A stretch of 64,000 nt of DNA from Amanita rubescens (taxonomy: Eukaryota; Basidiomycota; Agaricomycetes; Agaricales; Amanitaceae). Positions 19,320 to 37,669 of the stretch are shown here, in pieces (the first letter of the stretch is position 1; each line of letters opens with the position of its first letter). The notes beneath the pieces were generated by a model. That model saw only the letters and a list, made by a program, of their open reading frames with translations, was not told where the DNA came from and did no database searches. The stretch is from positions 310,001 through 374,000 of the forward strand of contig WION01000022.1 of assembly GCA_015039365.1 (NCBI GenBank), written 5' to 3'. The position numbers were made by a program, and so were the translations under genes.

Positions 19320-22205
19320 TCACGCCTTCTCGAACACATACAAATACGCCAATTGCTTCAGCTCGTTCACGCTCTCCGCGTCTGCTTTTACCACCTTTTC
19401 GTCATTGAATAACACCCATCCACCTGGTCCGGCGTCAGATGGAGGGACCCTGACATGCGCAACGTAATGTCCACTATGGACGCTGGGTCCCTTGTGAGAC
19501 ACAAACGCTTTGAGGGCATATCGCACAGGGACGGTTGTAGTTCCCCCGGTCTGTTGCGTCGTGTTGCTTGGCGCAGAGGAAGATTGAGCAACATTTTCTT
19601 CCCCTGTAACGTCTGGATGGTTGAACAGCCAATCTACAGCACGCTCCGCGTTATTGTCCTATCGTTTGTCACTCGTTAGCACCTGGAATCTCCGCAGAAC
19701 ACCGCGGACTCACGGTTTCCCGCAAGGCTATTTTAGCCTGGCCGACTGTGAACCCCATATCGGTCAACATAGCCACCATCTCCAGCGATGGCTCCGATGT
19801 CACTCCAGTAGGCTGTTGCACCTCTGCGGATTGTGGGACGTCGATGTCTAATCACGTCGTAAGCGTTCCAATCACCCGAAGAGAGAAGGTTCGGCCAGAA
19901 CACACCTGGATCATCCATGTGCGAAAATATCCACTCCATAGCCGACTCTGCGTCGCTGTTACCTGTTGCCCTCAGAGCCTTTTCGCAACGAACACGAGGG
20001 AATCCCATCATCTCCAACTGTGACACTAGTTCCTCATTAACGGGTGGTAACCCACTTGTCCCACCTCCCTCCGTGTCGTCCGGCAACTCAACTTCACCGG
20101 ATTGAAGTCCACTTCCAACGTGCTTCTGTTCGAAGACGAGCGTATCGTTCTCAGGAAGTATAACCGGGATGTCTGCCCGTCCCAGATCAACCCCAGTGAA
20201 AGAGAGTAAGAATAGCGTCGTGCGACTCACCCAACTTGGTCGGAACCCAATTTACCAACTTGAATTTCTTGACGTGGACGACGAGCACCTCAGGGAAGGA
20301 TGCAAACCGGCTGCCCTTGGTTGCAATGACTTGAGTATTCTCAACAGGACAAGTATAATGGAGCGCCTCGGCTGAGAGGAACGAGTCGATACAGGATGTG
20401 AGCTTGACAGGCTTGTATTTAGTCTTCTTCTCTCCTTCGCTGAGGATCTCCTCTTCCTCACCAGTGACTTGGACACTCAACGTGTCCATCGCGTCGACGC
20501 GATAGCTGACCTTCTTACAAGACTGGCACTGCAACCTTTGTTCCATCCCATACTTGAACACGCGCGTCGCGTCCCCATCACCACCAAGCGCAATCCCAAG
20601 CCGCTTATTATCCTCCCTGATGCGCTTTAAAAGATGCGCAAAGAATTCTTCCGCGTCTTGTTGACGCATCGTGGAGAATTCGTTGTGGTTTTTGCCGATG
20701 ATCGATCTGAACGCGTTTGGCCGGATACCGGCCTGAAATTCGGGCTGGTGTCCCGGATCGGAGGAGGGCGGAACAGGGTGAGACAGAACATCGGGTGTAG
20801 ACGTTGAGGAAAATGCTTCAGCGGCGGATATGCTAGTTTTGGGAAGAGGAGGGGTAGATTGCGGAATGGCATACCGCCCGCTGAGGAGACCGTCTGCTAT
20901 TTTTTGTATTTGGCATTCGAGGCAGTCTGCGGGAAGAAGCACTCTGCATTCTTGGGCGTGAGTGGGGTCCGGTTGGAAGTAGCGTTGCTGGAAGGTCGGG
21001 AGAGAAAAGACGGTTTGGAGGATCGATGCGATATAGCAGCTGTTACCCAGATTGGAGAGACCAGTCAGGCCTGGTCCGCAGACGGGCTCAAGCGTTTCTC
21101 CAGAATTGGAAGTGAGAGAAAAATCGTATTGGAGGTTATGTTCGATGTCCTGGCAAAGTGTTAGCCAATTGACGATTGTGACAAGGACAATCTTACGAGC
21201 TCAGTCATGGATTTCTCGGTTTTTGCCAATGATTTAATGTTAATTCCGAATGTTTTGAGGTGTGCTGCAATCTCTGTATCTCGTCTGGCATCGTTGCATG
21301 TGTAGCAGTAAATGTCTGGAGAAGTTGGTGAATATTACGTATGCCGCAGTAGTCCATAACGCACCTGCACCGCCTTCTGGTGTAATGGCACCTAGCTTGA
21401 CAGATACAGAGTGTTGTGAATCTGAATCTTGATAATGGGTCAAGGCGTGTCCACGGCCTTCTAAACCGCCGACTTGCTTGCGTCCGCAACCGAGGTTGCC
21501 GCACGTGAGACATAACCACAAGTTAGTTGTCAAATCACAAGAAGCGCAGTGCGCCAAGCCTGGGAGGAAGGCCCACATTAATCTATTCCAACATGAAGGA
21601 CTTGATGCCCACCTGACTCGGCAATCGGCCCCGTCGCAAACTGTTCGAGCAACAATGTATGCTCGCAGGGGATGATCTCTTCCACCCACGCTTTAATTTC
21701 AGACTGACGCGCAGAAGAATGGGAGGACATGCAAGCATCTACCAGTGACTTCACCTTGGTCGCGTTAGCCTTTCCAGTTATTCCAAAATGCGAAACTTAC
21801 CTTGGCATCGTTTGCGGCCTCCGGAGCGAGTACGCCCTCCACAGGATCACACATCCAACATTTGATGGTAGTCAAGAACTGATACTTTTCCTTCTCGGTT
21901 GGTTCTTCTTGAATTGCCAACTTGGCCATCTTGGCAGGTGGCCCATTCTCGTCTCGTCCGTTCCCGCTGGCTGTCTGCGGAGCTGGAATGCGTCGTACGT
22001 TGAGGGTAAATGGATGATCCGCCTTGTGAACGTGCATTTGAGCGTGTAGTCGCGGGCAAGCGCCATTGAAACAAGACAAGCAGAGGTCGACGCCTGTTGG
22101 CAGATCCTGGCTATCAAAACACTGAGTACATTCCTCCCTGTGCACCTGCTGTGATAACTTTGGGTGAGATAAAGTAGAGATGCGCGATATATGTGCGCAT
22201 TCCAT
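19320..22205 (-). CDS. UBP14: Ubiquitin carboxyl-terminal hydrolase, UBP14/USP5 type
   Basis: Eight exons on the minus strand: 22205-21801, 21754-21613, 21559-21365, 21315-21197, 21149-20231, 20172-19906, 19847-19714, 19658-19320; 839 residues, all junctions in frame. Domains in order: an N-terminal zinc-finger-like region (EECTQCFD), the ZnF-UBP domain (CASCDLTTNLWLC, HALTHYQDS, VSVKLG), the catalytic Cys box GLSNLGNSCYIASILQ, the QQDAEEFFAHLL box, two UBA domains inserted in the catalytic core (ELVSQLEMMGFPRVRCEKAL and EMVAMLTDMGFTVGQAKIAL), and the His box with HSGHYVAHV and GGWVLFNDEKV. By family knowledge this isopeptidase T disassembles free polyubiquitin chains and supplies monoubiquitin. 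Length and domain order are those of the full enzyme. Two broken 3' copies lie upstream at 13229 and 16145. Confidence 0.93.
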
Positions 22206-22287
22206 CTTGCGTTCGTGGCCGCTGCAGTGGTCCAAAGTCGCGCGTCCTGCCAATGATTATCTAATCAATCATCTCATCGCAAAACAC

Positions 22288-22296
22288 GTGCTCCAT
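22288..22296. repeat. Target-site duplication, left copy
   Basis: GTGCTCCAT directly abuts the left inverted terminus and recurs exactly at 30105-30113 after the right terminus. The related unoccupied site at 32411-32500 contains a single copy (GTGCTCCAC). Confidence 0.88.
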
Positions 22297-22394
22297 CAGA
22301 CTCCTTCCCAGTCTCGTCTGGAGGTTGGACGTCTTGACGATGTTTATGTAAGACTACGCTCCAGAGAGACTGGCACAAAACATTCGTCAACAAA
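22297..22394 (+). repeat. Left terminal inverted repeat, 98 bp
   Basis: Identical, reversed and complemented, to 30007-30104. Starts CAGACTCCTTCCCAGTC. The two sides diverge immediately inside this block, although a short TTATGTAAATG motif is shared a little further in. Confidence 0.92.
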
Positions 22395-22615
22395 AGCTCG
22401 GAGACGTTACGAGCTGTGACCTGTAGCTTATGTAAATGATAATCGAGCGGACTTCAAATCGTTTGGCTGTGCCGCGCGCCTGAAGACCAGCCTCGTGTAT
22501 GGCACGTAATCCCCTCCACCACCGCTGACCGGCTTCACTCAAGGTGAGTTGCAAAGTAATTGTACGGTATACTAACATGTTCTGACGCACTTTTTAGGTC
22601 TTTTTCTGCGCTCTC

Positions 22616-24956
22616 ATGTCCTCAGACGCAGATCCACCTGCTCCTGCCTCCCTGGCTCCTTCTGTTAACGAAATCCGTTCGCGAACACTTGAGACTTTTG
22701 GAAAACGACCTTGTCTATGGCAGGTTCGCATTTGCGAGGCGATTTTGAAGGGAGATCAAGATGTCATATCGATAGCAGGCACGGGAATGGGGAAGACGCT
22801 CACCTTCTGGATGCCGCTACTATTTCGCCCTCTAGGGATTCTTCTCGTCGTCACACCCCTCAACATCTTAGGGAAACAGAACATTGAAACTCTGGAGAAG
22901 GCTGGGATCGAAGGAATTTTTATTTCGGCACGAACTGCAACAGAAGAGAATTTCCGGGTGAATACATTATTCTTTGCGCGCTAGTAGCATTTTTATTCAC
23001 ATGAACTTTGTTTTAGGCAATTGCAGCCCACCGCTATCGTGTCATTGTTGTAAATCCCGAAGAACTCATGCGGCCGAAAGGTGGTTTCGAAAAACTAATG
23101 AAGGACAAGCTATTCGTCAACTCTCTCATCGGAATTGTCATTGATGAAGCCCATTGCATCTCGCAGTGGGGCTCTTTTCGTCCTGAGTATCGACATATTG
23201 GCCAGCTTCGCTTCCTTCCCCGTAAACATTGTCCATACCTTATCACGTCCGCTACGATGTCGCCAGCTGTCATCCTTGACATCAAGAAGGTCCTGAACCT
23301 TGATGAAGATAAATTGTTGCTTTCTCGCTGCTCTGTTAATCGCTCCAACTTCGCTATTATCATTCGCCCAATTGTACACTCCCTCGCCAGTTTTCTAGAT
23401 CTCAAGTTTCTGTTACGTGATTGGAAGCCCGGGGATCCCCCGCCTCCGAAATTTCTTGTGTTTTTTGACAATATCCAAACTGCTGTTAGCGCAGCAAAGG
23501 TTTTGCGCAAGCTATTACCGAAGGAACATCGACATCGAGTCAAGTGGTTTTTTGCAGATATGTCTGATGAATTCAAAGAAGATGAAGCAGATAGGTTGGC
23601 AAAGGGTGAAACGTGGGGGCTGTTGACGACGGATTCGTTTGGAATGGTGAGTTCTCTTTTATTTTGAGATGAGCATGCTAACACCTCTCAGGGAATGGAT
23701 ATACCCGACATTCAGATCGTTTGCCAGTGGCGTGCTACATTGCCAAGTGTTTCAACGATTTGGCAGCGATTTGGTCGATGTGTCCGAGATCCGACACTAC
23801 AGGGCCTCGTTTACCTGTTTGTAGAAAAGGAATACTTTGACGCTGAACGCAAGAGGGCTGAAACAGCAAAGGATTCAAGGAAGCGAAAACGAGCCGCTAC
23901 TGTAGCTGGCAGGCACAGTGATCCAAGCGGTGACGAGGAAGAGGGTACCACGCAGATGAAGTCGAGCCGTAAACCAAAAAACGGCAAGAAGAATGTAATA
24001 GATCCTGCTGTTGACGATGTCATCAATGCGGATGAACGGGGTATTGGCTGCCGACGCCAACCTCTCATTGCCGTATTCCAGGATTCTATGTCGGCAACGT
24101 CTCATCTTGAATGTGATCCAGCTCTACCTCAAGGCTGTGCCCGCTGTCGTCCTGTTTCTATTCAGCTGTGTTGCGACATACATAACCCAGAGCTAACACA
24201 ACCAAATATCTCTCAATCATCGACTGCTAAGCCTCAAGCAGTGGTGCGCCGTTCTAATCTCTCTGCTTCACTTGAGATGGATTCGAGGGACAAGGCCCTT
24301 GAATATGATCTTGAAATCTGGCGGCGCAACAAGACCAAGGAGAAATACGGTCTTGCATGTCTCAAGCATGAAGGACCTGGACTCGTGATGTCAGCAGCAG
24401 TTCGCGAACGCATCGTCAAGTGTGCGCATTTTGGCAAGATCAAGATGGCCACTAACCTCGAACGAGAGACACGTTGGTCAGGTTCTCATGAATATGGTTG
24501 TGATATCATCAAAATTATCGAAAAACATTATCCGCCTGAGCCCCCGCCATCCCTTGGTCCGATGCCAAGTCAGCTCCCGCTCCAACCCTTCCTTCTCAAC
24601 TCAGCGTCTCAAATAGGCAGTCAGCCACTGGTAGTTCCACCTGCAGCACGTACAAAGCGCGCCGTCAAATGTAGTGTGTGCAACCAGACTGGCCATAATA
24701 GTATGTATCCGTCATCAGTTGTTCCTAGCTGTACTAACGATGCATTACAGTGAAGAACAAGGCAAAGTGTCCTGGGCCGCCAAGCACGCAATTTGTGAAG
24801 AAAGAAAACATACCACCACTCCTTCCTTCTCCGCTCCCTCGTGATCCATTTGCAATCCCTTCGTTATCAGTGGCTTTATCATCGTCTACCACCCTCTCTT
24901 CTATTTCCCCGTTCTCATCACATCAATATCAAGAAGGCGCGGCCGATTATCAATGA
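22616..24956 (+). CDS. RecQ-like DNA helicase of the transposon
   Basis: Exons 22616-22957, 23017-23646, 23692-24700 and 24751-24956; 728 residues. Helicase motifs are all present: AGTGMGKT (Walker A, residues about 54-61), VVTPLNIL (Ia), DEAHCISQWG (DEAH box about 157-160 with the RecQ motif 0-like context), TSATMSP (III), LVFFDN (IV), TTDSFGMGMDIPDI (V) and QRFGRCVRD (VI). After the helicase core comes a basic Lys/Arg-rich linker and, near residue 651, a CxxC...GH...C zinc knuckle that is created by splicing exon 3 to exon 4. By family it should unwind DNA with ATP; in this setting it may act in transposition or repair of the excision site (inference). The frame is intact. The C-terminal RQC/HRDC domains of cellular RecQ are not seen. 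Confidence 0.88.
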
Positions 24957-27298
24957 TAATTCTACTATATCAATTCGCCTATAATATCATCCACGTCTGG
25001 TCTATCATCGCCAACATTCCCCTCATTTGCATCGTCATTCACTATTATTCCTACATGTTTATCCATTGCATCGTGTCCGTTATCCAACATGTCTGGAATA
25101 GAATGAACTGTTGTTCGCCCTGGCATGAATACGTGAGGTGAATTGCCTGCAATATGATCCCGTAGGTCTTTAAGCGTCTTCTCCATATTTGGGTCTGCAT
25201 GCAAGACAGACGTTTTTGATAAGGCAAGGTTACGTGTGATCGTCTCATGTGTATTCTTATAAGTTGCGATAAGTGCTGACTCTTCTATAATCCGTTTGAC
25301 AGTATGGTTAGGCCCTTGGCCACCATGTTTAACCTAAAGATGTGAGTGATTTGTATGTACTTCATCCGGGTTCAGAAAACTGACTTTGATCTCCAGGTTG
25401 TGCAATTCAACAAGCCAATCAATGGCGCGAAACTTTTCCGGTTTACCAGTTGGGTTGACCAAGATGTTATACCGGATAGCATGACGGAGACCTTCAGGAT
25501 ACTTGAAATGCAAATCAAGCAAGAACTGTTCAAGGTATGATGCGTATATGTGCTTCCCAGTTGCCTTGAATAACGGAATCCATGTCAACAGGCATCTTTC
25601 TACACGACCAATATCTCCAACATTCATCGCATATGAGAGCTCTTCATACAACGCAAGATAGGAATTGATCAGCTGTGCATTCTCGAGGAGTTGATCACGC
25701 TCCGAGATTGGTTTGAGACGGTCCAAAGATAAGTCTTCTGTACTTGCGAATTCTCGCATGATATCCTCAGCCATGTCTTCTAATTCATGTAACATTGGTT
25801 CAGATTCCGCAAGCTTATCGAGGCTAGTATGCTCAGGGTTCTTGCGTCCAGCCAGAACACGCCAACAGTCCAAGCGTCGACTAATTCCGGCATGATTGAT
25901 CACTTGATGCATGCGGCGAAAACCCGGTTTTGACGACATAATCCCAGTCTCCTTTGGACGTAAGACCATGATATCGCCCATCAAACCAGTTTTATCTTTG
26001 CGTGCCAAACCAGGTTTGATGAGAATACGATGAAGCGCACATCAGCAATTCCTCAAATTTCACTTTCAGCCCTTTCAGCCCTTTTGAAAGGGCCAAAGGG
26101 CCGAAAGTGGCCAAAGTGGGTCTCACTTTCGAAAGGAAGGTCATTTAACTTTGAAAAGGTGAGTTGACTGCTTTTGTACCTTTTCAAAGCTAGGTTTTTA
26201 CTTTCGTCCCTTTTCAAAGGGGCCAAAGGGTTCAATGTAGAACAATGAAATGTATTATTGCCAGCTATCAAATGACATTGTAAAGCTATAGGCATGGAAT
26301 GACTGTAGGTATCAAAACGGCATAAAAACAGGCAGGCGTCGTTTCACGAAACAAAGCAGCGCTGAAAGACTTGAGAAGGCGCTACAGTTGGCAGCATGCA
26401 GAAACAGGTATATAACAGAAGCCGGGGATGCGTAGAGAGAAAACAGTGCTGGACGAGAGCCGGCGGTGCATAGAGATGAATAAGCGGTCATGTTTTGCGT
26501 GGTGAGTCGAAATTGAAACAGCGCCCGGTCTGAATGAAATTTGCAGTACTTTGATGAGAGTCGGCAAAGGCATAGAAAGAGAATTGAGAGTCGAGAACTT
26601 GTATGACGACATAGCGATGCTCCAGTTCAAGTCTAGCGCCGTGTGAGAATCGTTACAGCATAGAAAAGAATTAAACACAGCCAACAATGTGGGGAGCGGA
26701 ACAGCACTGAACGCGTTCACTGCATTGTTGGCCCACAGGATACGGAGATGATGGTGCGGGGAGCGGACGGCACCGGATGCGCTCAGCGCCATGGTGCAGG
26801 GATGAGCTCACTGTCAGTATCGTATCGGAAAGGTGTGGGACACACCGTTTTGTAAGTGAGCGTGAAAGTGACGGGTCCAAAGCGAAGCGAATCTCTGGGT
26901 GAGCCAAGACTTGATGCGAAGAAAAACAGAGCTTGAGGGCGATGAGAGCGGCGGAGGTAAAGCTGGTCAGGTGAGGGAGCGGGGAACCGAAGGATGACTT
27001 ACCACGGGTAACTCCATCATGCATCTAGAGAGCAGCAAGGCATGCTCTTTATATTTGAAATCTCCATTGATTCACCGACGCTGGTGTATGGGCATAGAGA
27101 ATCGCATGATTTGGTGAAAACACTTCCCATCCGCACCAGCACCGCCGTCTACTACAACGTCGTCAGTAAGCAAAGAAGCAAAGACCAGTTATAGTCGACC
27201 ACATACCTACTCGACACGCGTTCAAGTTGTCGACGATGTAGGCTTTCAATTAGTTGTGCAAGCTGCGGAGAATGGAGAAGTCAGCTGGCTAACGTTAT

Positions 27299-27572
27299 GC
27301 GCATATAGCTGACTAGCCTCATCATCACCGGCAGTAGGCCGGGTTTCCTAGCATGCACGCTCGGTACGATTGAGTATTGATGTATGACACTGGTTGTGTT
27401 GGGCGAGCGATTGGAAGGCGACGTGCGTGAGTTCAGCATTCAACATACTGCGCATATAGTCAATGCACACCTCATCATCAATGATGGCTGGGATTCCTGG
27501 GCATGCACACTCAACATGAGTGGCTATCAACAGTGCCGATCGTTCTGGGTGGCGATTGGGAGGCGATGTGTG
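27299..27572 (+). repeat. Degenerate direct repeats inside nested element
   Basis: Two units starting GCGCATATAG at 27299 and 27450, about 151 nt apart, share CCTCATCATCA, GCATGCAC and GCGATTGGxAGGCGA blocks. They are diverged tandem copies of unknown function. Confidence 0.6.
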
Positions 27573-27822
27573 GCTAGGGATGGGAGGCGCGATGGCGGTG
27601 GGGGATGAGCGAGCGATAAACATCCACAAACAATGGACTTAGAATTTTTTAGTCGCAACGGCTACGCACAATGCTGCCAGAATCTGTAACTGCACGCGTC
27701 CATGGCTGAATGTTGCCTCAGTGAATATTGCTGGCACATATGGGGTTAGTTCGGAGCCAGTATACGCAGAGTTGGGCAATATGTTTGGGTATATCAGTGA
27801 TTAGCTTCTTGTAGCTACAAAT

Positions 27823-27895
27823 GGTGTTGTGGCTGAGTGGTTAAAGCGCATCTTTGTGTTGCACGTGGCCTTGGGTTCGAATCTCGAGCAAAGTA
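27823..27895 (+). other. tRNA-like segment with Pol III A and B boxes
   Basis: TGGCTGAGTGG (27830-27840) fits the A box of serine/leucine tRNAs, and GGTTCGAATC (27874-27883) fits the B box, at normal spacing. The acceptor, anticodon and T stems do not pair properly, so it is not a working tRNA. It looks like the head of a tRNA-derived SINE or a decayed tRNA caught in the nested element. Confidence 0.5.
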
Positions 27896-30006
27896 ATATT
27901 TTTATACATTGATGTTCATTAGCTGCCTCACGATGCAAATGGTTCAAAGTACAATTACAAAGCTGCATGTAGCTAAAGTCAAAGTAAAATATTGAAAGTG
28001 CTAAAAGCTACTAAAGCTCATTACAGCCAAAGTCAAAGGGCCAAAAGCTCAAAGGGCTTCTGGTAAAGTGAGAAAAGTGGGCCCTTCAAAGTGAAAGGGC
28101 CCAAAGCGGAATTTGACAATTTGCTGATGCATCAGCAGCTGCCATTTTTACATGAAATAGACCGGGGATGAAGACAGCATGTTGTTTGCGCCGGTAAGGT
28201 GTTTCTTCAATTGATCGAAACTCTTGTGCAGTCCTGATTCGTATCCCAGTTCCTAGGTCGCCATGGAACAAAACAACATATTTGCTAACATCAGTGTCTG
28301 GATTATAGGACTCTTCCTCGAGTATACCGGGATCGTAGATGCCACCTTGCTCAAGAAGCCGATCAAGTGCTTGAAGATTCCCACTTGTTGTTGAATTATT
28401 TGCTTCCAAAGAAAACATTGGCTGGACCACCGTTTTGATGACAGGTATGGGCTCGATTTCTTCAGGCGCATCCAGATAGCTGAGAAATCGCTGGAAATAA
28501 GGTGCCGAATGTGTACAGAGGTCTCGCAGCAACAAATATTTGATGAAGCGCTCGCGTCGTGTCAGAGAAAAGCTCGGTGGTTCTTGATATATGTTCATGA
28601 GATCTCGGTAAGTTTTGTTTTCAGGTGGCAGATCTTCATTGTCAGGATTGAACCGGCTTTTTGCCCACAGCTCCGCTGAGCACTGTAAGTCATCCCGAGT
28701 CACTCCGTGCTCCAAAGGTATCAGCAGCCCTGAGGTGAGATGCTTCAAATTTTCAAACGGATTTTCGGAAACCGGTACAGATGCTTTTAGGTTAACATCA
28801 AAATTGTCATAGGCATAACTTGTCAAGAGTGTCTGGCCAAGCGCGCGCAGTGAACAAGCAGCTTCATTTGTCAAAGATTTGATAGCCAAAAGAATTGCGT
28901 TCATTGATATAGATATTCCCATTCTTGCTAGCGCATCAACGACCCTTTCAGGAGTACAGCAAGAGTAGAGAAAAATTCCGACCATGGCCTGTAGGTGATT
29001 TGCCTTCTGGTTCATGCTCTGCATTAATATACTCGTTACAACAGCCTTTTTCTAGCAGACAGGTAAACAGAGTCATCATGAGAGCCAAGGTAAGCCTCAC
29101 GATTGCTAGAACATCGTCTTTTTGTTTCTGCTTTTTCAATCGCTGTTCTTCTGGGCTTGCAGGTGCTCTAAGTGGACCCTCCAGAAGGGCATCGTCTTCA
29201 TCAGCATCAGCATTTGCCATTGCCGAACCACCCTGAGCTTCTGAAGCATGTCGATTCAGTTTTTTGCGAGAAGATAACAACACGGTGAGCAGCGCAGACA
29301 GCATCGGCGCCTTCTGATCAATATCAGCAGCAAGTTCTGCCATCTGGAAGCTATTCACGTCCTGAGGTAAGGCCCTGAGTGCCGAGAAATGCCATTCTGA
29401 CTTGATGTCGACCAGAAGTTCCATCTCAGCCGCATATATTGGATGTAGCGCCTCACTAGCATGCTTCTGAGCCTCCCGAGAAGTCTTCTTATGCTTCAGC
29501 AACGCATATACAAGGTCGCCAGCACGATTAAGCAGTCCAGTGGTGAGTGGGCTCTTCTTGAAGCGAGCCTCAGTTAACAGAGCCAATACCAGGTCAGAAA
29601 TGCTCGTTTCGCATCGCTCCAAGGCCTGAAAGACAGGGGAGAAGTCCATATTGATGAGGCGATGGCTTATGGAGAAAATGAGATGGCGATTGTATGCGTA
29701 GACGTTGACGACGTCTGCCTCCTCAGTCAATCTAATTTTAGAATACACCTTCAAATCATCGTGTCACCGTATACATGCTTGGGCAACTCAACCTTCTCTT
29801 TATTCGAGGGGCTATTACCACCTAATACCATAGTATACATTGAGCTAGATTTAAAAAATGTCGCCAGTGAGGATTGTGCAAATATCTTTTGTGCCATTTC
29901 GACGCTTTCACAAACGGCCGGCAACATCTGAGTTCAAAAATCGCTCTGCCGAGCATTTACATAATCGTTATCTAAGCGAGCGTGATGAAAATGGGCCAGG
30001 CGTGAC

Positions 30007-30104
30007 TTTGTTGACGAATGTTTTGTGCCAGTCTCTCTGGAGCGTAGTCTTACATAAACATCGTCAAGACGTCCAACCTCCAGACGAGACTGGGAAGGAG
30101 TCTG
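30007..30104 (-). repeat. Right terminal inverted repeat, 98 bp
   Basis: Reverse complement of 22297-22394 with no mismatch found by eye. Confidence 0.92.
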
Positions 30105-30113
30105 GTGCTCCAT
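30105..30113. repeat. Target-site duplication, right copy
   Basis: GTGCTCCAT, identical to 22288-22296. The sequence that follows (CGCAAGTTCTTC, then ATTTTCGATGTCATT) continues the paralogous flank seen uninterrupted at 32411-32500. Confidence 0.88.
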
Positions 30114-30453
30114 CGCAAGTTCTTCAGACACGTAAACTCGGTTTCTGAAACGCGTAGTATGCCTTTCAATTTTCGATGTCATTGGCTGAACGCAACCAAG
30201 TAATCCGATAGAAAGGTAAACCGTAAGCACTCTTCTTTCTGGTGAAGGGCAACACGTTTATAACGAGGAAAATAAATGTACACAAACGCTAAATATAACC
30301 TCTGCCGTTTTAACACCTGCGCCCATACCAGGACACAATTGCGCCGCTCGGCTATCCTCTCCACTACCAAATACCTGCGAACCCCAGCATTCCTCACATA
30401 TCTCCTCCATCTAAAAACCACGTTTAGCCGTGCAATACTCCGTGTCGAGAGGC

Positions 30454-30464
30454 CACGTGCCGCG
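30454..30464 (+). promoter_or_regulatory. Conserved CACGTG block before F-box gene E
   Basis: CACGTGCCGCG, 21 nt before the start codon. The same or closely related block precedes the starts of genes F, G, H and I, so it is either an E-box for a bHLH factor or part of a conserved 5' leader. Confidence 0.4.
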
Positions 30465-30484
30465 AACTCTCTGCATACTACAAA

Positions 30485-31849
30485 ATGAGTTCAGACGAAA
30501 TAACAATACCAACCGAAATTTTACACAACATCTTTCATCTTCTTTGCGATGCACCTATCGCTTTCCATGATTTGAAGAACGAATCACACTTCCACGAGTT
30601 CCCATGGGCCGTTGGACAGGTTTGCAGACATTGGAGAGGGGCATTTGTGTCCCACACGCATTTATGGACTTCTTTTGCCCTAAAGCCTGGTGACTTTAAC
30701 GCCGCTTACTTTGTTGAAATGAACCGGCGCGCTGCCATGTACCTCGAACGATCTAGAGAGCAGCCTCTCACCATAGTCGTGTTTACGCCGTGTTCAGGCA
30801 CTCAAAAATTTCCTAAAACAGTTTGGAGAATGCTGTTATCGTGCTTGAAACGATGGAAAAAGGCTGATTTGGTGCTGGGGAATGGAGCTGCGCAAGACGA
30901 ACTCTTCAGATGCAGAGGGTACATGTCGAGCCTCGAGTCCCTCAAGATGTCTATAACCAATTATTTCGCAGCCCCGAAGAACTTTAGCGCGTTCGAGGTC
31001 GCACCGCACCTAACTGAACTTGATCTAGACCACCGCGGATACACGGCAACATGGCAATTCCCTTGGGCTCAATTGACGAAGCTCAAAATAACAGCGTCCT
31101 GCTCAGAGTTCCGCCACTCCTACAGCAATAATCTGTGGGGAGTTCTATTCCAGTTAGAAAATATCGAAGAGTTACACATCATCACAACCTTCGACTACGC
31201 ACCGCTCCTTTCCCACCTTCCCATTATACACCTTCCTGGCCTTCGGCTTCTCGAAATCCCCTTACCCTCTGCCAAGATGTTCTCCTGGTTCACCGCGCCT
31301 TTACTGGAGCATCTCCACATACGGAGTATCAATAATTCCATTTATCGTCAACATAACGAGCCCTACGAGAGAGAACTAACGTCTTTAATCCAACGTTCAT
31401 CTTGTCACATTCGCCGATTGGTGCTCGAGAATTGTAGAGCGGACGAGATGCGCATAATGATGAAAGTACTGGCGAGCGTCGAAGAGCTCTCCATTATTTA
31501 CCTAAGTTCCTTCACTATCAACCAGGACGTTACGGGACTTGATGGCTGCATCTATCTGCCCAAATTGCAAGTACTGCAAGTGACGTGTACAATTGATTAT
31601 GGGATGAACCCGGTGACAGCATTAGAGAACGCGACGACAGTGTTCTCTCGTCTTTTGGAAGCGCGTGGGAAGGGACTATCCCTTGCAAGCCACGACATTG
31701 TACCACTCGAGAAGTTTGTGCTCCGGTTGAACTTCTTGGGGCAAGGAAAGTGGTCCGACAAGGTTTTGGAACTGGTGCACGGTTGGCCGTCCTTTGCTCA
31801 AGTTTATGTCAACGACTCGGTGCTCGAGCGATTGGTTCCACCCCTTTGA
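30485..31849 (+). CDS. F-box protein E (array 2)
   Basis: Single exon, 454 residues. The N-terminus ITIPTEILHNIFHLLCDAP followed by FPWAVGQVCRHWRGAF is a clear F-box of the type common in mushroom-forming fungi. The rest is a string of hydrophobic strand/helix units (LTELDLDHRGY, WAQLTKLKI, NIEELHII, LPGLRLLEI) consistent with leucine-rich repeats, ending with a VLELVHGWPSFAQVYV motif. Paralogue of F-I and unrelated in gene structure to array 1. Probable SCF adaptor. Its far upstream region, about 380 nt before the ATG, received the RecQ/DUF6589 transposon, which may separate it from upstream control elements. Confidence 0.9.
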   Translation: MSSDEITIPTEILHNIFHLLCDAPIAFHDLKNESHFHEFPWAVGQVCRHWRGAFVSHTHLWTSFALKPGDFNAAYFVEMNRRAAMYLERSREQPLTIVVFTPCSGTQKFPKTVWRMLLSCLKRWKKADLVLGNGAAQDELFRCRGYMSSLESLKMSITNYFAAPKNFSAFEVAPHLTELDLDHRGYTATWQFPWAQLTKLKITASCSEFRHSYSNNLWGVLFQLENIEELHIITTFDYAPLLSHLPIIHLPGLRLLEIPLPSAKMFSWFTAPLLEHLHIRSINNSIYRQHNEPYERELTSLIQRSSCHIRRLVLENCRADEMRIMMKVLASVEELSIIYLSSFTINQDVTGLDGCIYLPKLQVLQVTCTIDYGMNPVTALENATTVFSRLLEARGKGLSLASHDIVPLEKFVLRLNFLGQGKWSDKVLELVHGWPSFAQVYVNDSVLERLVPPL

Positions 31850-31954
31850 TCTATCCTGACGAGAGCTACTTCAAGAATAGCGGATTCGGGCTGCTTGTGC
31901 CTATGATACATTTAAATAATTTAGATTTTTTTTGTACAAAAATTTCATCATGTG

Positions 31955-32225
31955 GCACGCAAATTTTGACCGCCAAGTCCGCGATGAGCGCTGTCGTCGG
32001 CATCAACTGGGCAACTCGTACGCCTCCATCACCGTCTTCACAAAGGAGCATGTCGCACAATGTATCGCAAACCAGGATGGCGAAGCGATTGCATCATTTA
32101 TTGGCCAGGAAGTCGTGCGTGCGCCTCGTCATCTTCTCTCTTTTGAACTGATACTAATGGAGAGATGCGGGCAGTACATTTTCGCGGGTACGCTCGTGCA
32201 GCATCTGGACGATCCTAGAGTCCTT
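31955..32225 (+). pseudogene. Broken SSZ1 5' fragment, copy 1
   Basis: Matches the start of the intact gene at 41925: the segment before the ATG (CAAATTTTGACCGCC), the first exon with several small deletions (GINWATR in place of GINLGNSYAS), the intron with its GTGCGTGCG donor, and a little of exon 2. It is frame-broken and stops where homology to the next F-box flank begins. Confidence 0.8.
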
Positions 32226-32410
32226 TTTCGATCCCCTTGTTTATACTATGCTTATGGCGGTTCACCGCCCTGGTCTCTTCAGTGGCCTATCTCTGAAGAG
32301 GAAAGGGTGTGTCTCTTGTTTCTCAGAGGAGTCTCTCCAGCTACGGTGGAGCTCTTGACGGATTTCCCCTCAAAGACCCCTAACATTGTAACAAGGATGT
32401 CCTGCCAGTG

Positions 32411-32500
32411 ATTAGTATCTAATCAACCATCTCATCGCAAACACGTGCTCCACCGCAAGCACTTCTGACACGTAGTACGCCTTTTAATTTTCGATGTCAT
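32411..32500. other. Unoccupied paralogous target site of the transposon
   Basis: Reads TATCTAATCAACCATCTCAT, then CACGTGCTCCACCGCAAGC, then TTTCGATGTCATT. The left part matches 22252-22296 and the right part matches 30105-30182, that is, the two flanks of the 7.8-kb element without the element. It is a duplicated upstream region of gene F that was never hit. Confidence 0.85.
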
Positions 32501-32855
32501 TGTCTGCACTAATGCACGCAGATGCAGGCGCATGCCACAAGCAGGCAGTCCACGTCGTTCAGAAAAGAAGACAGATTAAATGGATCAATGGCAACGATTC
32601 TGGCGTCTCCGAGCCAAGTAATCCGATAGAAACGTCAGCACGTTTATAAGTTATAACGGGAAAACAAACATATACAAATGCTAAATATAACCTCTCAGCC
32701 GTTTTAACACCTGCGCCCATACCAACACAATTGCGCCGCTAGGCTATCCTCTCCACTACCAAATATCTAACAGTTGCGAACACCAGCATTCCTCAGATAT
32801 CTCTTCCACCAATTTTTTAGAAACCACATTGGGTTAGCCGTGCGTGTCGAGAGAC

Positions 32856-32866
32856 CACGTGCCGCG
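32856..32866 (+). promoter_or_regulatory. Conserved CACGTG block before F-box gene F
   Basis: CACGTGCCGCG ending 11 nt before the ATG; the counterpart of the block before gene E. Confidence 0.4.
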
Positions 32867-32877
32867 AACACTACAAA

Positions 32878-34233
32878 ATGGGTTCAGGCGAAATAACAAT
32901 ACCAACCGAAATTTTACATGACATCTTTCATCTTCTTTGCGATGGACCTATCGCTCTCCATGATTTGAAGAACGAATCACACTTCCACGAGTTCCCATGG
33001 GCCGTTGGACAGGTTTGCAGACATTGGAGAGGGGCATTTGTGTCCCACACGCATTTATGGACTTCTTTTGCCCTAAAGCCTGGCGACTTTAACGCCGCTT
33101 ACTTTGTTGAAATGAACCGGCGCGCGGCCATATACCTCGAACGATCTAGAGAGCAGCCTCTCACGATAGTCGTGTTCATGCCGTGTTCAGGCACTCAAAA
33201 ATTTCCTAAAACAGTTTGGAGAATGCTGCTATCGTGCTTGAAACGATGGAAAAAGGCTGATTTGGTGCTGGGGAATGGAGCTGCGCAAGACGAACTCTTC
33301 AGATGCAGAGGGTACATGTCGAGCCTCGAGTCCCTCAAGATGTCTATACCCAATTCCACAGCCCCGAAGAACTTTAACGCATTCAAGGTCACACCGTACC
33401 TAACTGAACTTGATCTAGCCCACAGCGGATACACGACAACATGGCAGTTCCCTTGGGCACAATTGACGAAGCTCAAAATAACAGCGTCCTGCACAGAGTT
33501 CAGCTCCTCATACAGCAATAATCTGTGGGAAGTTCTATTCCAGTTAGAAAATATCGAAGAGTTACATATCCTCACAACCTTCAGACGCATAACGACGCCT
33601 TCCCCCTTTCCCATTATACACCTTCCTGGCCTTCGGCTGCTCGAAATATCCTTAACCTCTGCCATGATGTTCTCCTGGTTCTCTGCACCTCTACTGGAAC
33701 ATCTCCACATACAGAGTGCCGGTAGAGCCAGTTTTCTTCACCATGATCAGCACTACAAGAGAGAACTAACGTCTTTGATCCAATGTTCATCTTGTCGCAT
33801 TCGCCGATTGGTACTCGAGAATTGTAGAACGGAGGAGATGCGCATAGTGATGAAAGTACTGGCGAGCGTCGAAGAGCTCTCCATTATTTACCTAAGTTCC
33901 TTTGCTATAATTCAGGACGTTACGGGACTTGATGGCTACATCTATCTGCCCAAATTGCAAGTACTGCAAGTGACGTGTAAAATTCGGAAGAAAGCGGGGG
34001 CATTATTAGAGCACACGACGACAGTGTTCTCTCGTCTTTTGGAAGCGCGTGGGAAGGGATTGTCCCTTGTAAGCCACGACATTGTGCCACTCGAGAAGTT
34101 TGTCCTCTGGTTGAACTTAAGCTTGCAAGGAAAGTGGCCTGACAAGGTCTTGGAAGTGGTGCACGGTTGGCCGCCCTTTGCTCAAGTTTATGTCAACGGC
34201 TCGGTGCTCGAGCGATTGACTCCATCCCCTTGA
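32878..34233 (+). CDS. F-box protein F (array 2)
   Basis: Single exon, 451 residues, the nearest relative of gene E with long identical runs. F-box: ITIPTEILHDIFHLLCDGP plus GQVCRHWRG. It differs from E mainly around residues 160-170 (a 2-codon gap after SIPNS), around 230-280, and near 375 (KIRKKAGALLEHTT), which suggests that leucine-rich segments vary while the F-box is kept. Flanked by broken SSZ1 copies on both sides. Role inferred as substrate adaptor in a ubiquitin ligase. Confidence 0.9.
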   Translation: MGSGEITIPTEILHDIFHLLCDGPIALHDLKNESHFHEFPWAVGQVCRHWRGAFVSHTHLWTSFALKPGDFNAAYFVEMNRRAAIYLERSREQPLTIVVFMPCSGTQKFPKTVWRMLLSCLKRWKKADLVLGNGAAQDELFRCRGYMSSLESLKMSIPNSTAPKNFNAFKVTPYLTELDLAHSGYTTTWQFPWAQLTKLKITASCTEFSSSYSNNLWEVLFQLENIEELHILTTFRRITTPSPFPIIHLPGLRLLEISLTSAMMFSWFSAPLLEHLHIQSAGRASFLHHDQHYKRELTSLIQCSSCRIRRLVLENCRTEEMRIVMKVLASVEELSIIYLSSFAIIQDVTGLDGYIYLPKLQVLQVTCKIRKKAGALLEHTTTVFSRLLEARGKGLSLVSHDIVPLEKFVLWLNLSLQGKWPDKVLEVVHGWPPFAQVYVNGSVLERLTPSP

Positions 34234-34369
34234 TCTATCCTGATGAGAGCTACTTCAAGAATGGCAGATGCGAGAACTTGGGCTGCTTGTGCATAGTGTA
34301 AATTTACTAGTTTAGAATATTTTTGTACAAAAATTTATTTTCAATCTCAGCAAGAAACACGGTTATCCG

Positions 34370-34880
34370 CCCACGTGGCAAGCAAATTAGCGCTCCCCCG
34401 CCAGTCATCAACTGGGCAACTCATACGCCTCCATCACCGTCCATGTCGCAGAATGTATCGCAAATCAGGACGGCGAAGCGACTGCATTTATTGGCCAGGA
34501 AGTCGTGCGTGCGCCTCGTCATCTGCTCTCTTTTGACCTGGTACTAACGGAGAGATATGCGGGCAGTACATCGAAACCAGGCAAAACTCCATTTTGTGGA
34601 AAATGCTACAAACACGATTCAAGGCTTCTGCGACTTGCTGGGAGCGTCGTATGTCATCCATTTGCGGGTTTGCTCGTGCAACATCCGACGATCCTACTGT
34701 GCTCGTGTGGAAAGTTGAGGTGCTGCAGCCTGCGCCGTCGCCGCTACTGTGACGTCCAATCCATCCACAGTTCAAGCGCTCACGCCTCGCCTAACCCTTC
34801 GGCGGTCGCAACGCTCGCTTCTGAGCCGGTGACTGCGACGCGAAACATCACCCTCCTAGAAGCAACGGCCCTCTTCTCTC
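34370..34880 (+). pseudogene. Broken SSZ1 5' fragment, copy 2
   Basis: The longest SSZ1 relic. It covers exon 1 (with deletions), the intron, and exon 2 up to the Ser/Pro-rich insert (matching APSPLPQSVTSNPSTAHAS and TATRYITPLEATTLF of the intact protein), then is cut at about 34880. Several frameshifts, for example after the GASYV/GVSYA position. Confidence 0.82.
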
Positions 34881-36307
34881 AGTCCCACATTGTCGTCGGT
34901 CAGCAGCATATATATCCCCTTCCCTCCGATCACGTCCACCACAAATGTCGTTCAGCAGTTGCTGAAAATGGACAAAGCATGACAAGAACGAGGAAGTCGT
35001 GAAATTGGCACACTGAATTGTTGTTGCAGCGGGAGCAGTCACGTCAACCGTTTCTTCTTCAGCTACAGAATAAGATGATGACAGGACACGAGAAAATGAA
35101 TTCTGTGTTGACTCCCTCGTATCCGCTATATCGCCTTTTCCCGCACCGACACCTGCAGAGTCACGGCCAACGCTACTCTTGATGTGGGGAGGCGCGTCGT
35201 TTGGGACGAGTTGCATGTACGAGGCGATCCAAATATACTGGTAAGTGTCGAACATTGATTAAAAAGGTTTTCGTAGTGTTTAATTAGTTTTATAGGGAAA
35301 GAGTTACGAAAGGTGGTGACCGGTTGTCATGTGTTCATCCTGCGCCGTCTGAGAAATAGGCTATTAAGAAGTTGGAAAGTGGGATCCGACAGTCACCATA
35401 GGCTTTACGGTGAGTGTTTGTCTTTTCATTCAATTTAGAGATTTTACATATGTACTTACTGAGCTACACAGATTCAATGTGCATCTAGAATGTTTCGGTG
35501 CAAGTTCAGGACGACGTTCAAGTCAAGGGGCGTTCCATATACAGGAGCCACCCTCTCCCCCACTTCGTATACTACCACCGTCACCAAAGTATCAACATAG
35601 GCGGCAGTCCCTCAACATCTCCCCTTTTTCCGAGTATCACTCCTACAAATCCCGAACCACCCCCCCATTGTAGACTCTCCATCCGTACCGACGGAAGCGA
35701 CGAAGAATAAATACACTGACACATGCACTGTCCCTATCTCTAACATCTCGTCCTCGCCTTCGTCATCCCACCCTGCTCAAAATTCGAATAACCCAAACAA
35801 GCCACTGCAGACGCAGACATACAAGCAAAAATCACCATGGTTCTAACCATCCGACAGTCCTTCAGACGCTCCTGCAATCATTATATCGCCTCAAGCACAT
35901 CCACCACTCGATGCCATTCAGCCGGTGCTCATACCCCCTCCGCCACCAGCCATTGATGACTAGGACATACAGGTCATCTTCCCAGCAGCTGCCGACTCAT
36001 CAACTGTTCCATCTTCAACCACCTCCGTTGTGGATACTGTTATGCTAGGCGATGAAAAGAGTGCTGGCGTTGACGCGACAACATGCGAGGAAAACAAATG
36101 TACACAAACAAGTAAACAAATGTACACACGTTAACAATTCGGAGTTGTCTGACTTGTGTGCCAATACCTTCGCCCATACACGAACGCTAGCATAGAACTA
36201 CTCCTCAGATATCTCCTCCACCAATTTTCTAGAAACCTCGTCGGGTGAAATACTCCACGTCGAGAGGCAACGTGCCGCAAACTCTCTGCTTACTAGTAGC
36301 TACCAAA
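34881..36307. other. Intergenic, no gene seen
   Basis: Contains Pro/Ser-rich open frames around 35410-35710 (PPSPPLRILPPSPKYQ) that are short, lack a clear start or splice context and have no relative in the window. The last about 130 nt resemble the upstream regions of the other array-2 F-box genes. Confidence 0.45.
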
Positions 36308-37669
36308 ATGAGTTCCGAAATAACAATACCAATCGAAATCTTAAGCGACATCTTTCACCTTCTTTGCGATGGACCTATCGCTCTCGATGATTTGAAGAAC
36401 GAGTCACACTTTCACGAGTTCCCATGGGCCGTTGGACAAGTTTGCAGGCATTGGAGAGGGGTATTTCTGTCCTATACGCATTTGTGGACCTCTTTTGTCC
36501 TAAAGCCTGGAAATTTTAACGCTGCTTATTTTGTTGAAATGAACCGGCGCGCGGCCATATACCTCAAACGATCTGGACGGCAGCCTCTCACCATAGTCGT
36601 GTTCAACACGCCGTGTCCAGGCACTCCAAAATTTCCTATATCAGTTTGGAGAATGCTACTATCGTGCTCGAAGCGATGGAAAAAGGCCGAGCTGGTGCTG
36701 TGGCAACGAGCCGCGCGGAACGAACTCCTCAGATGCAGAGGGTACATATCGAGTCTCAAGTCCCTCAGGATATTTATACCCAATTTCACAGAGGAGCACA
36801 ATGACGCATTCGAAGTCGCACCGCACCTAACTGAACTTGATCTAGCCCACAGCAGATACACGACAACATGGCAGTTCCCTTGGGCACAATTGACGAAGCT
36901 CAAAATAACAGCGTCCCGCACAGAGTTCAACCACTCCTACAGCAATAATCTGTGGGAAGTTCTATTCCAGTTAGAAAATATCGAAGAGTTACATATCCTC
37001 ACAATCTTCAGACGCATAACGCCACCTTCCCCCATTCCCATTATACGCCTTCCTGGCCTTCGGCTTCTCAAAATATCCTTAACCTCTGTCATGATGTTCT
37101 CCTGGTTCTCTGCGCCTTTACTGGAACATCTCCACATACGGAGCGACAGTGCCAGTTATCTTTACCATAATCTGCCCTACGAGAGAGAACTAACGTCTTT
37201 TATCCAACGTTCATCTTGTCATATTCGCCGATTGGTGCTCGAGAATTGTAGAACGGAGGATATGCGCATAATGATGAAAGCACTGGTCAGCGTCGAAGAA
37301 CTCTCCATTAAGGACCCAGGTTCCCTCGCTATAATACTGGACGTTACGGGACTTGATGGCTACATCTACCTGCCCAAACTGCGGGTACTGCGGGTGGCGT
37401 GTGCTGTTCCCGGGAGGGTTTTTTTAGCGAACACAGTGACAGAATCAGAGAAAGCAGTGATATTATTTTCTCGTCTTTTGGAGGCACGGGGGAAGGGATT
37501 GTCCCTTGCGAGCCACGGCATCGTGCCGCTCGAGAAGTTTGTGCTTCGGTTGACCTTGTATGGAAAGTGCCCCGACAAGGTCTTGAAAGTTGTGCTCGGT
37601 TGGCCGTCCTTTGCTCAAGTTTATATCAGCCCCTATCCTTATGAGGCCGCTTGTACCGACCAGTCATAG
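36308..37669 (+). CDS. F-box protein G (array 2)
   Basis: Single exon, 453 residues. F-box: ITIPIEILSDIFHLLCDGP with FPWAVGQVCRHWRGVFLSY. The ATG at 36308 aligns with those of E, F and I; the frame is open upstream but without a conserved start. Compared with E it carries changes in the LRR part (IFIPNFTEEHNDAFEVAP) and a longer insert near residue 375 (FLANTVTESEKAV). The leader has AACGTGCCGC instead of CACGTGCCGC. The C-terminus ends VYISPYPYEAACTDQS. Likely SCF adaptor. Confidence 0.88.
   Translation: MSSEITIPIEILSDIFHLLCDGPIALDDLKNESHFHEFPWAVGQVCRHWRGVFLSYTHLWTSFVLKPGNFNAAYFVEMNRRAAIYLKRSGRQPLTIVVFNTPCPGTPKFPISVWRMLLSCSKRWKKAELVLWQRAARNELLRCRGYISSLKSLRIFIPNFTEEHNDAFEVAPHLTELDLAHSRYTTTWQFPWAQLTKLKITASRTEFNHSYSNNLWEVLFQLENIEELHILTIFRRITPPSPIPIIRLPGLRLLKISLTSVMMFSWFSAPLLEHLHIRSDSASYLYHNLPYERELTSFIQRSSCHIRRLVLENCRTEDMRIMMKALVSVEELSIKDPGSLAIILDVTGLDGYIYLPKLRVLRVACAVPGRVFLANTVTESEKAVILFSRLLEARGKGLSLASHGIVPLEKFVLRLTLYGKCPDKVLKVVLGWPSFAQVYISPYPYEAACTDQS

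Follow-up and report, generated by a model that had tools for sequence, protein, structure and literature searches.

A 64,000-nucleotide window of the Amanita rubescens genome (GenBank assembly GCA_015039365.1, contig WION01000022.1, positions 310,001 to 374,000 of the forward strand; positions below count from the first letter of the window) contains a terminal inverted repeat (TIR) transposon that carries a RecQ-type helicase gene facing a gene for a DUF6589 protein. The transposon is real, an empty counterpart site is present in the same assembly, and the anatomy of the element ties DUF6589 to a transposon in this one genome. We consider it very likely that this is a cut-and-paste transposon of the AcademH type, with DUF6589 as its transposase. 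The evidence for this reading includes the insertion and its empty site, the recurrence and codivergence of the gene pair across the genome, and the agreement of helicase type and duplication length with descriptions of AcademH.

Structure of the element and its empty site

The element spans positions 22297-30104 (7,808 bp), with the outermost 98 bp on either side forming a perfect inverted repeat. An exact 9-bp target site duplication (TSD), GTGCTCCAT, flanks it at 22288-22296 and 30105-30113. The two genes inside are convergent, with the RecQ-type helicase on the plus strand and DUF6589 on the minus strand. A first-pass annotation made from the letters alone had described these coordinates, termini, duplication, and convergent genes, and re-reading of the sequence agrees with it on each. 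The features are as follows:

22288..22296, no strand: left TSD GTGCTCCAT, 9 bp, present as a single copy at the empty site on contig C4
22297..22394, plus strand: left TIR, 98 bp, starting CAGACTCC; other copies share these ends
22616..24956, plus strand: RecQ-type superfamily II helicase gene, four exons (Pfam, matches to PDB sequences, spliced open reading frame [ORF])
24965..29649, minus strand: DUF6589 (PF20231) gene (Pfam), putative transposase gene, interrupted by a nested insert
26040..28129, no strand: nested 2,090-bp repeat splitting the DUF6589 frame, with imperfect inverted ends CATCAGCAA...TTGCTGATG
30007..30104, minus strand: right TIR, 98 bp, a perfect copy of the left TIR
30105..30113, no strand: right TSD GTGCTCCAT, 9 bp

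The empty site lies at C4:11673-11872, which matches the joined flanks of the element over 200 bases with one differing base and carries a single GTGCTCCAT between the flanks, compared to the two that surround the element. Because C4 holds this matching site with one GTGCTCCAT, the duplication and the ends are not products of chance. Identity between C4 and the window is 99.8% over 1,002 bp of the left flank and 91.6% over 1,008 bp of the right flank, which in the window is part of a repeated region; C4 may represent the other haplotype. Another copy of the element, on C189, is 100% identical to that on the window contig (C135) over the 3,113, 3,101, and 3,648 bp compared. Since this identity includes the flanks, the C189 copy is a duplicate of the same site and not an independent insertion.

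Joined flanks were searched for seven elements; of 224 candidates, the first search scored 40 and was dominated by locus L031, and L022, L023, and L029 were searched again. The flanks of L031 are a repeat, and its empty site has at least 10 matches at 100% and more at 95%. At least two matches at 95% were obtained for L025 (40 of 224 candidates scored), and matches crossing the junction of L029 were found at 96% (C223), 91% (C746), and 90% (C557), together with two shorter ones. No empty-site match was found for L022 or L023 in the repeated search of the assembly, nor for L032 among the matches listed (40 of 224 candidates scored).

The outline of the window copy is whole, whereas the gene presumed to encode its transposase is disrupted. 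The nested repeat divides the DUF6589 reading frame, and PF20231 matches the gene in two pieces (E = 3.7e-57 and 9.8e-26). The ATG near 29649 and the intron limits of this gene were set by eye, and its last ORF ends at 24965. Elsewhere in the genome, eight partial relatives of the nested repeat stop at its right boundary and two at its left one. Minus the repeat, the element would be about 5.7 kb long, matching the 5.6 to 5.8 kb of its relatives in L022, L023, L025, and L031. The transposon had been called complete in the first-pass annotation, which overlooked this insert; because the repeat splits the DUF6589 gene, the window copy cannot be called complete in a functional sense.

Two further observations concern the surroundings. 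Around 27820-27890, the nested repeat resembles tRNA A and B boxes by eye; ARAGORN (whole window) and Rfam (22200-30200) gave no matches and found no tRNA there. To the right of the insertion, the repeated region at 30428-37666, which the right flank at the C4 empty site likewise matches, contains three ORFs of about 475 amino acids, two of them giving F-box-like matches slightly below the cut-off and the third a weak leucine-rich repeat match.

A recurrent gene pair between inverted ends

The assembly searched comprises 75.7 Mb in 786 contigs. Genome-wide, PF20231 gave 45 matches and the window helicase exon gave 52, forming 28 and 44 clusters, respectively, in which apparent duplicates (C135/C189, C321/C605, and C46/C383) are counted separately. 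A convergent helicase lies beside 22 of the 28 DUF6589 clusters; by comparison, a random point falls within 6 kb of a helicase about 0.7% of the time. Of the 44 helicase clusters, 25 lie no more than 6 kb from a DUF6589 cluster. The two genes also diverge together. Helicase and DUF6589 identities correlate across 66 pairs of 12 elements (Pearson r = 0.944, based on helicase exon 2 only and, for the window element, only on the DUF6589 piece preceding the insert), a value reached by none of 10,000 permutations.

For 20 of the 28 DUF6589 clusters, loci were fetched and screened for inverted ends matching at 14 or more of 20 bases together with an exact 9-bp duplication. Both are present at 11 of these loci, representing 9 distinct sites, or 10 with the window, as L018/L019 and L029/L030 each have an identical duplication in opposite orientation and were counted as one site each. 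Base-shuffled loci yielded 0.2 such end/duplication pairs per set. Loci L018, L020, and L028 (on C46, C373, and C97) belong to a second clade of DUF6589 elements, also with 9-bp duplications, whose ends (TARTCTCGTWCCCAGA) resemble those of the window element (CAGACTCCTTCCCAGT).

Elements without DUF6589 carry the same signature. The ends were checked at the eight best paired TIR matches lacking a PF20231 match, with weaker TIR matches left out, and exact 9-bp duplications are present on C768, C80, C26, C14, C623, C27, and C429 plus C249, the last two having one duplication in common and counting as one site, so that all seven distinct sites carry the duplication. Transposition in trans would leave derivatives of this kind. 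The copies at C429:257681-257807 (L046) and C249:12204-12330 (L047) are 127 bp long and consist of little beyond both ends, flanked by a 9-bp duplication.

Scanning for other duplication lengths gave 11 hits for a length of 7 bp, 24 for 8 bp, 4 for 10 bp, and none for 11 bp. The 7-bp hits correspond to the 9-bp sites less one base at either end, all four 10-bp hits are palindromic, and eight of the ten 8-bp hits shown (of 24) are palindromic words within longer inverted repeats. The remaining two shown are on L027 and L033, of which that on L033 is perhaps real.

DUF6589 and RecQ-type genes therefore do stand together between inverted repeats with 9-bp duplications in this one genome, as a recurrent unit. 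This is what the first-pass annotation had proposed, and within this genome the outcome it had said would count against the proposal was not observed. Its suggestion that such a transposon could explain the abundance of DUF6589 genes also holds for this genome, given a recurrent, codiverging pair with TIRs and TSDs.

A further pair is found at L017:2607-6246, on the 1.5-Mb contig C331, where a 725-amino-acid DUF6589 ORF faces a convergent 454-amino-acid ORF overlapping a helicase match. No convincing inverted ends were found at this locus, which may be an old element or a host-adopted pair.

DUF6589 as the candidate transposase

The helicase gene comprises exons at 22616-22957, 23017-23646, 23692-24700, and 24751-24956; its GT...AG introns were picked by hand without a transcript, and the spliced ORF is open over 728 amino acids. 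Exon pieces 1 and 2 match the DEAD domain in a Pfam scan, and piece 2 matches RecQ, RECQ5, WRN, RECQ1, and BLM among PDB sequences. The ORF also contains stretches that we take to be the Walker A, DEAH, GMDIP, QRFGRCVRD, and Cys-rich motifs.

We know of no helicases that cut and join DNA ends, and DUF6589 is therefore the natural transposase candidate. It is most likely the transposase, with a putative catalytic role. In an alignment of 14 DUF6589 rows from 13 loci, some of them fragments, the proposed triad D82, D261, and E438 (L023 numbering) is invariant in the rows that cover each position (12/12, 13/13, and 12/12), and the window protein keeps the equivalents of all three. Pattern searches for DUF6589 relatives in viral contigs and prokaryote genomes returned hits, none of them confirmed.

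Under this model, the window element would move as a cut-and-paste DNA transposon of the AcademH type. DUF6589, acting as a DDD/E transposase, would bind the inverted ends of approximately 100 bp, excise the element, and join it to the target at strand positions separated by 9 bp, after which repair by the host would produce the 9-bp duplication. The RecQ-type helicase may assist, for example, by opening the ends or processing the gapped product. Because the later nested insertion broke the window DUF6589 gene, further movement of this copy would need transposase supplied by another copy.

AcademH and other known systems

AcademH, of the Academ superfamily, was reportedly described by Kojima in 2020 (Mob DNA 11:15). 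TIRs are general for DDD/E elements, and those of the window element are perfect over 98 bp. AcademH elements encode a helicase and make 9- or 10-bp duplications, whereas AcademX elements encode a nuclease and make 3- or 4-bp duplications, and a link between the helicase and the 9-bp duplication has been suggested (PMC10045372). AcademH is described as low-copy in Basidiomycota, Ascomycota, and Mucoromycota (PMC10799480), and a title cited in that paper gives its hosts as animals and fungi. Academ is listed among the superfamilies with a DDD/E transposase (PMC9587614), and fungal Academ copies, which contain DEAD/DEAH (PF00270) and recQ-family helicase domains, frequently receive annotations as genes of the host (PMC6416283). 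In the mushroom Marasmius oreades, putative nonautonomous Mutator-like elements (MULEs) and Academ elements are widespread (PMC8290104).

The window element agrees with these descriptions in its superfamily II helicase, which is of the recQ type as in fungal Academ, and in its duplications, which measure 9 bp in the window, at nine further distinct gene-bearing sites, and at all seven sites without DUF6589. The first-pass annotation had recognized a TIR transposon with this gene pair, which stands, but knew of no named superfamily for it; AcademH probably fits. Very probably, then, the element is new as a member of a group already described, to which the DUF6589 link is a useful addition.

Several observations weigh against this reading. 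Six of the 28 DUF6589 clusters have no convergent helicase (on C168, C3, C385 [two], C236, and C760), with a same-strand helicase instead at C236, C760, and one C385 cluster, and for 19 of the 44 helicase clusters, several of them TIR-bearing derivatives, no DUF6589 lies within 6 kb. Nine of the 20 fetched loci lack the combination of inverted ends and exact 9-bp duplication (L017, L021, L024, L026, L027, L033, L034, L035, and L036); L027 has a CAG-type TIR pair with flanks that do not match. Duplication length also departs from that of AcademH in two places: one TIR pair on C760 shows no duplication, and a divergent DUF6589/helicase pair at L033:1362-7589 (C704), perhaps a sister lineage, has other inverted ends (TAGTGTTC...) and an 8-bp duplication, GCCATAGA. 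Within DUF6589, conservation of residues D420 and D447 equals that of the proposed triad. Pfam, which calls DUF6589 a "family of unknown function," links it to no transposase family, and in a Pfam scan of the 14 rows, DUF6589 was found in all 14 and seven other families only at E values of 0.08 or worse. A PDB profile search gave two weak hits that are not credible (best E = 0.038), and a single-sequence model of one DUF6589 piece had a predicted local distance difference test (pLDDT) score of 33.5, unusable as fold evidence. Finally, membership in AcademH is argued from described TSD length and helicase type and not from transposase sequence.

This last point also favors an alternative that we regard as unlikely, namely, a separate, unnamed TIR superfamily whose DUF6589 transposase is not homologous to that of Academ and was independently paired with a RecQ helicase. 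Such a superfamily would make 9-bp duplications, have two or more TIR types (among them CAGRCTCC and TARTCTCG), and be spread through mushroom genomes, in which the first-pass annotation had stated DUF6589 genes to be abundant; the labelling of both proteins as host genes would have kept this spread from being named. We found no mention of "DUF6589" in the literature searched, and "PF20231" appeared only in papers that, judged by title and the start of the abstract, are not on transposons. RecQ helicases have joined other transposons as well, as in KolobokH (PMC9587614), but the agreement of both TSD length and helicase type with AcademH and fungal Academ (PMC10045372 and PMC6416283) argues against a separate origin.

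It is very improbable that the element is a MULE lacking its own transposase, carrying captured genes, and moved in trans, although TIRs of about 100 bp with 9-bp TSDs are typical of MULEs and are shared by the window element. In the seven exon pieces scanned, only DEAD and DUF6589 exceeded the Pfam cut-offs, with no transposase domain of the MULE or any other known type, and the recurrence and codivergence of the DUF6589/helicase pair are not expected of captured cargo. Moreover, the TIR matches followed up, about half of the 42 listed, lie at elements with this gene pair, at pieces of it, or at derivatives, with short copies not read for a MULE gene.

Kolobok makes TTAA duplications, in contrast to the 9-bp GTGCTCCAT, and we give an assignment to KolobokH almost no credence. 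KolobokH forms another lineage of fungal DNA transposons that encode a RecQ helicase and is known only from fungi, and in one red-alga Kolobok, as in the window element, the RecQ helicase is encoded on the opposite strand, but the KolobokH helicase is positioned downstream of the transposase domain, whereas that of the window element is a separate convergent gene (PMC9587614). Our literature search for RecQ helicase transposons with TIRs in basidiomycetes turned up only work on Helitrons. Helitrons have no TIR, make no target duplication, and encode a Rep/HUH protein; the 98-bp TIR, the 9-bp TSD, and the absence of a Helitron domain in the seven exon pieces scanned lead us to reject them.

If the AcademH reading is correct, DUF6589, a family without an assigned function, would gain a likely job as the AcademH transposase. 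DUF6589 genes and the RecQ-like genes facing them could then be relabelled as transposon genes, which would clean gene counts and avert false claims of RecQ expansion. The genome would also provide a TIR family in which deletion derivatives and empty sites occur and the helicase codiverges, so that the role of the helicase in transposition and its tie to the 9-bp duplication, as suggested in PMC10045372, become testable.

Among known systems, fungal Academ elements resemble the window element in their DEAD and recQ-type helicase, in a comparison made by helicase domains alone (PMC6416283). AcademH was compared by helicase, TSD, and host range, and like the window element, it is a helicase-encoding DNA transposon that makes 9- or 10-bp duplications (PMC10045372).

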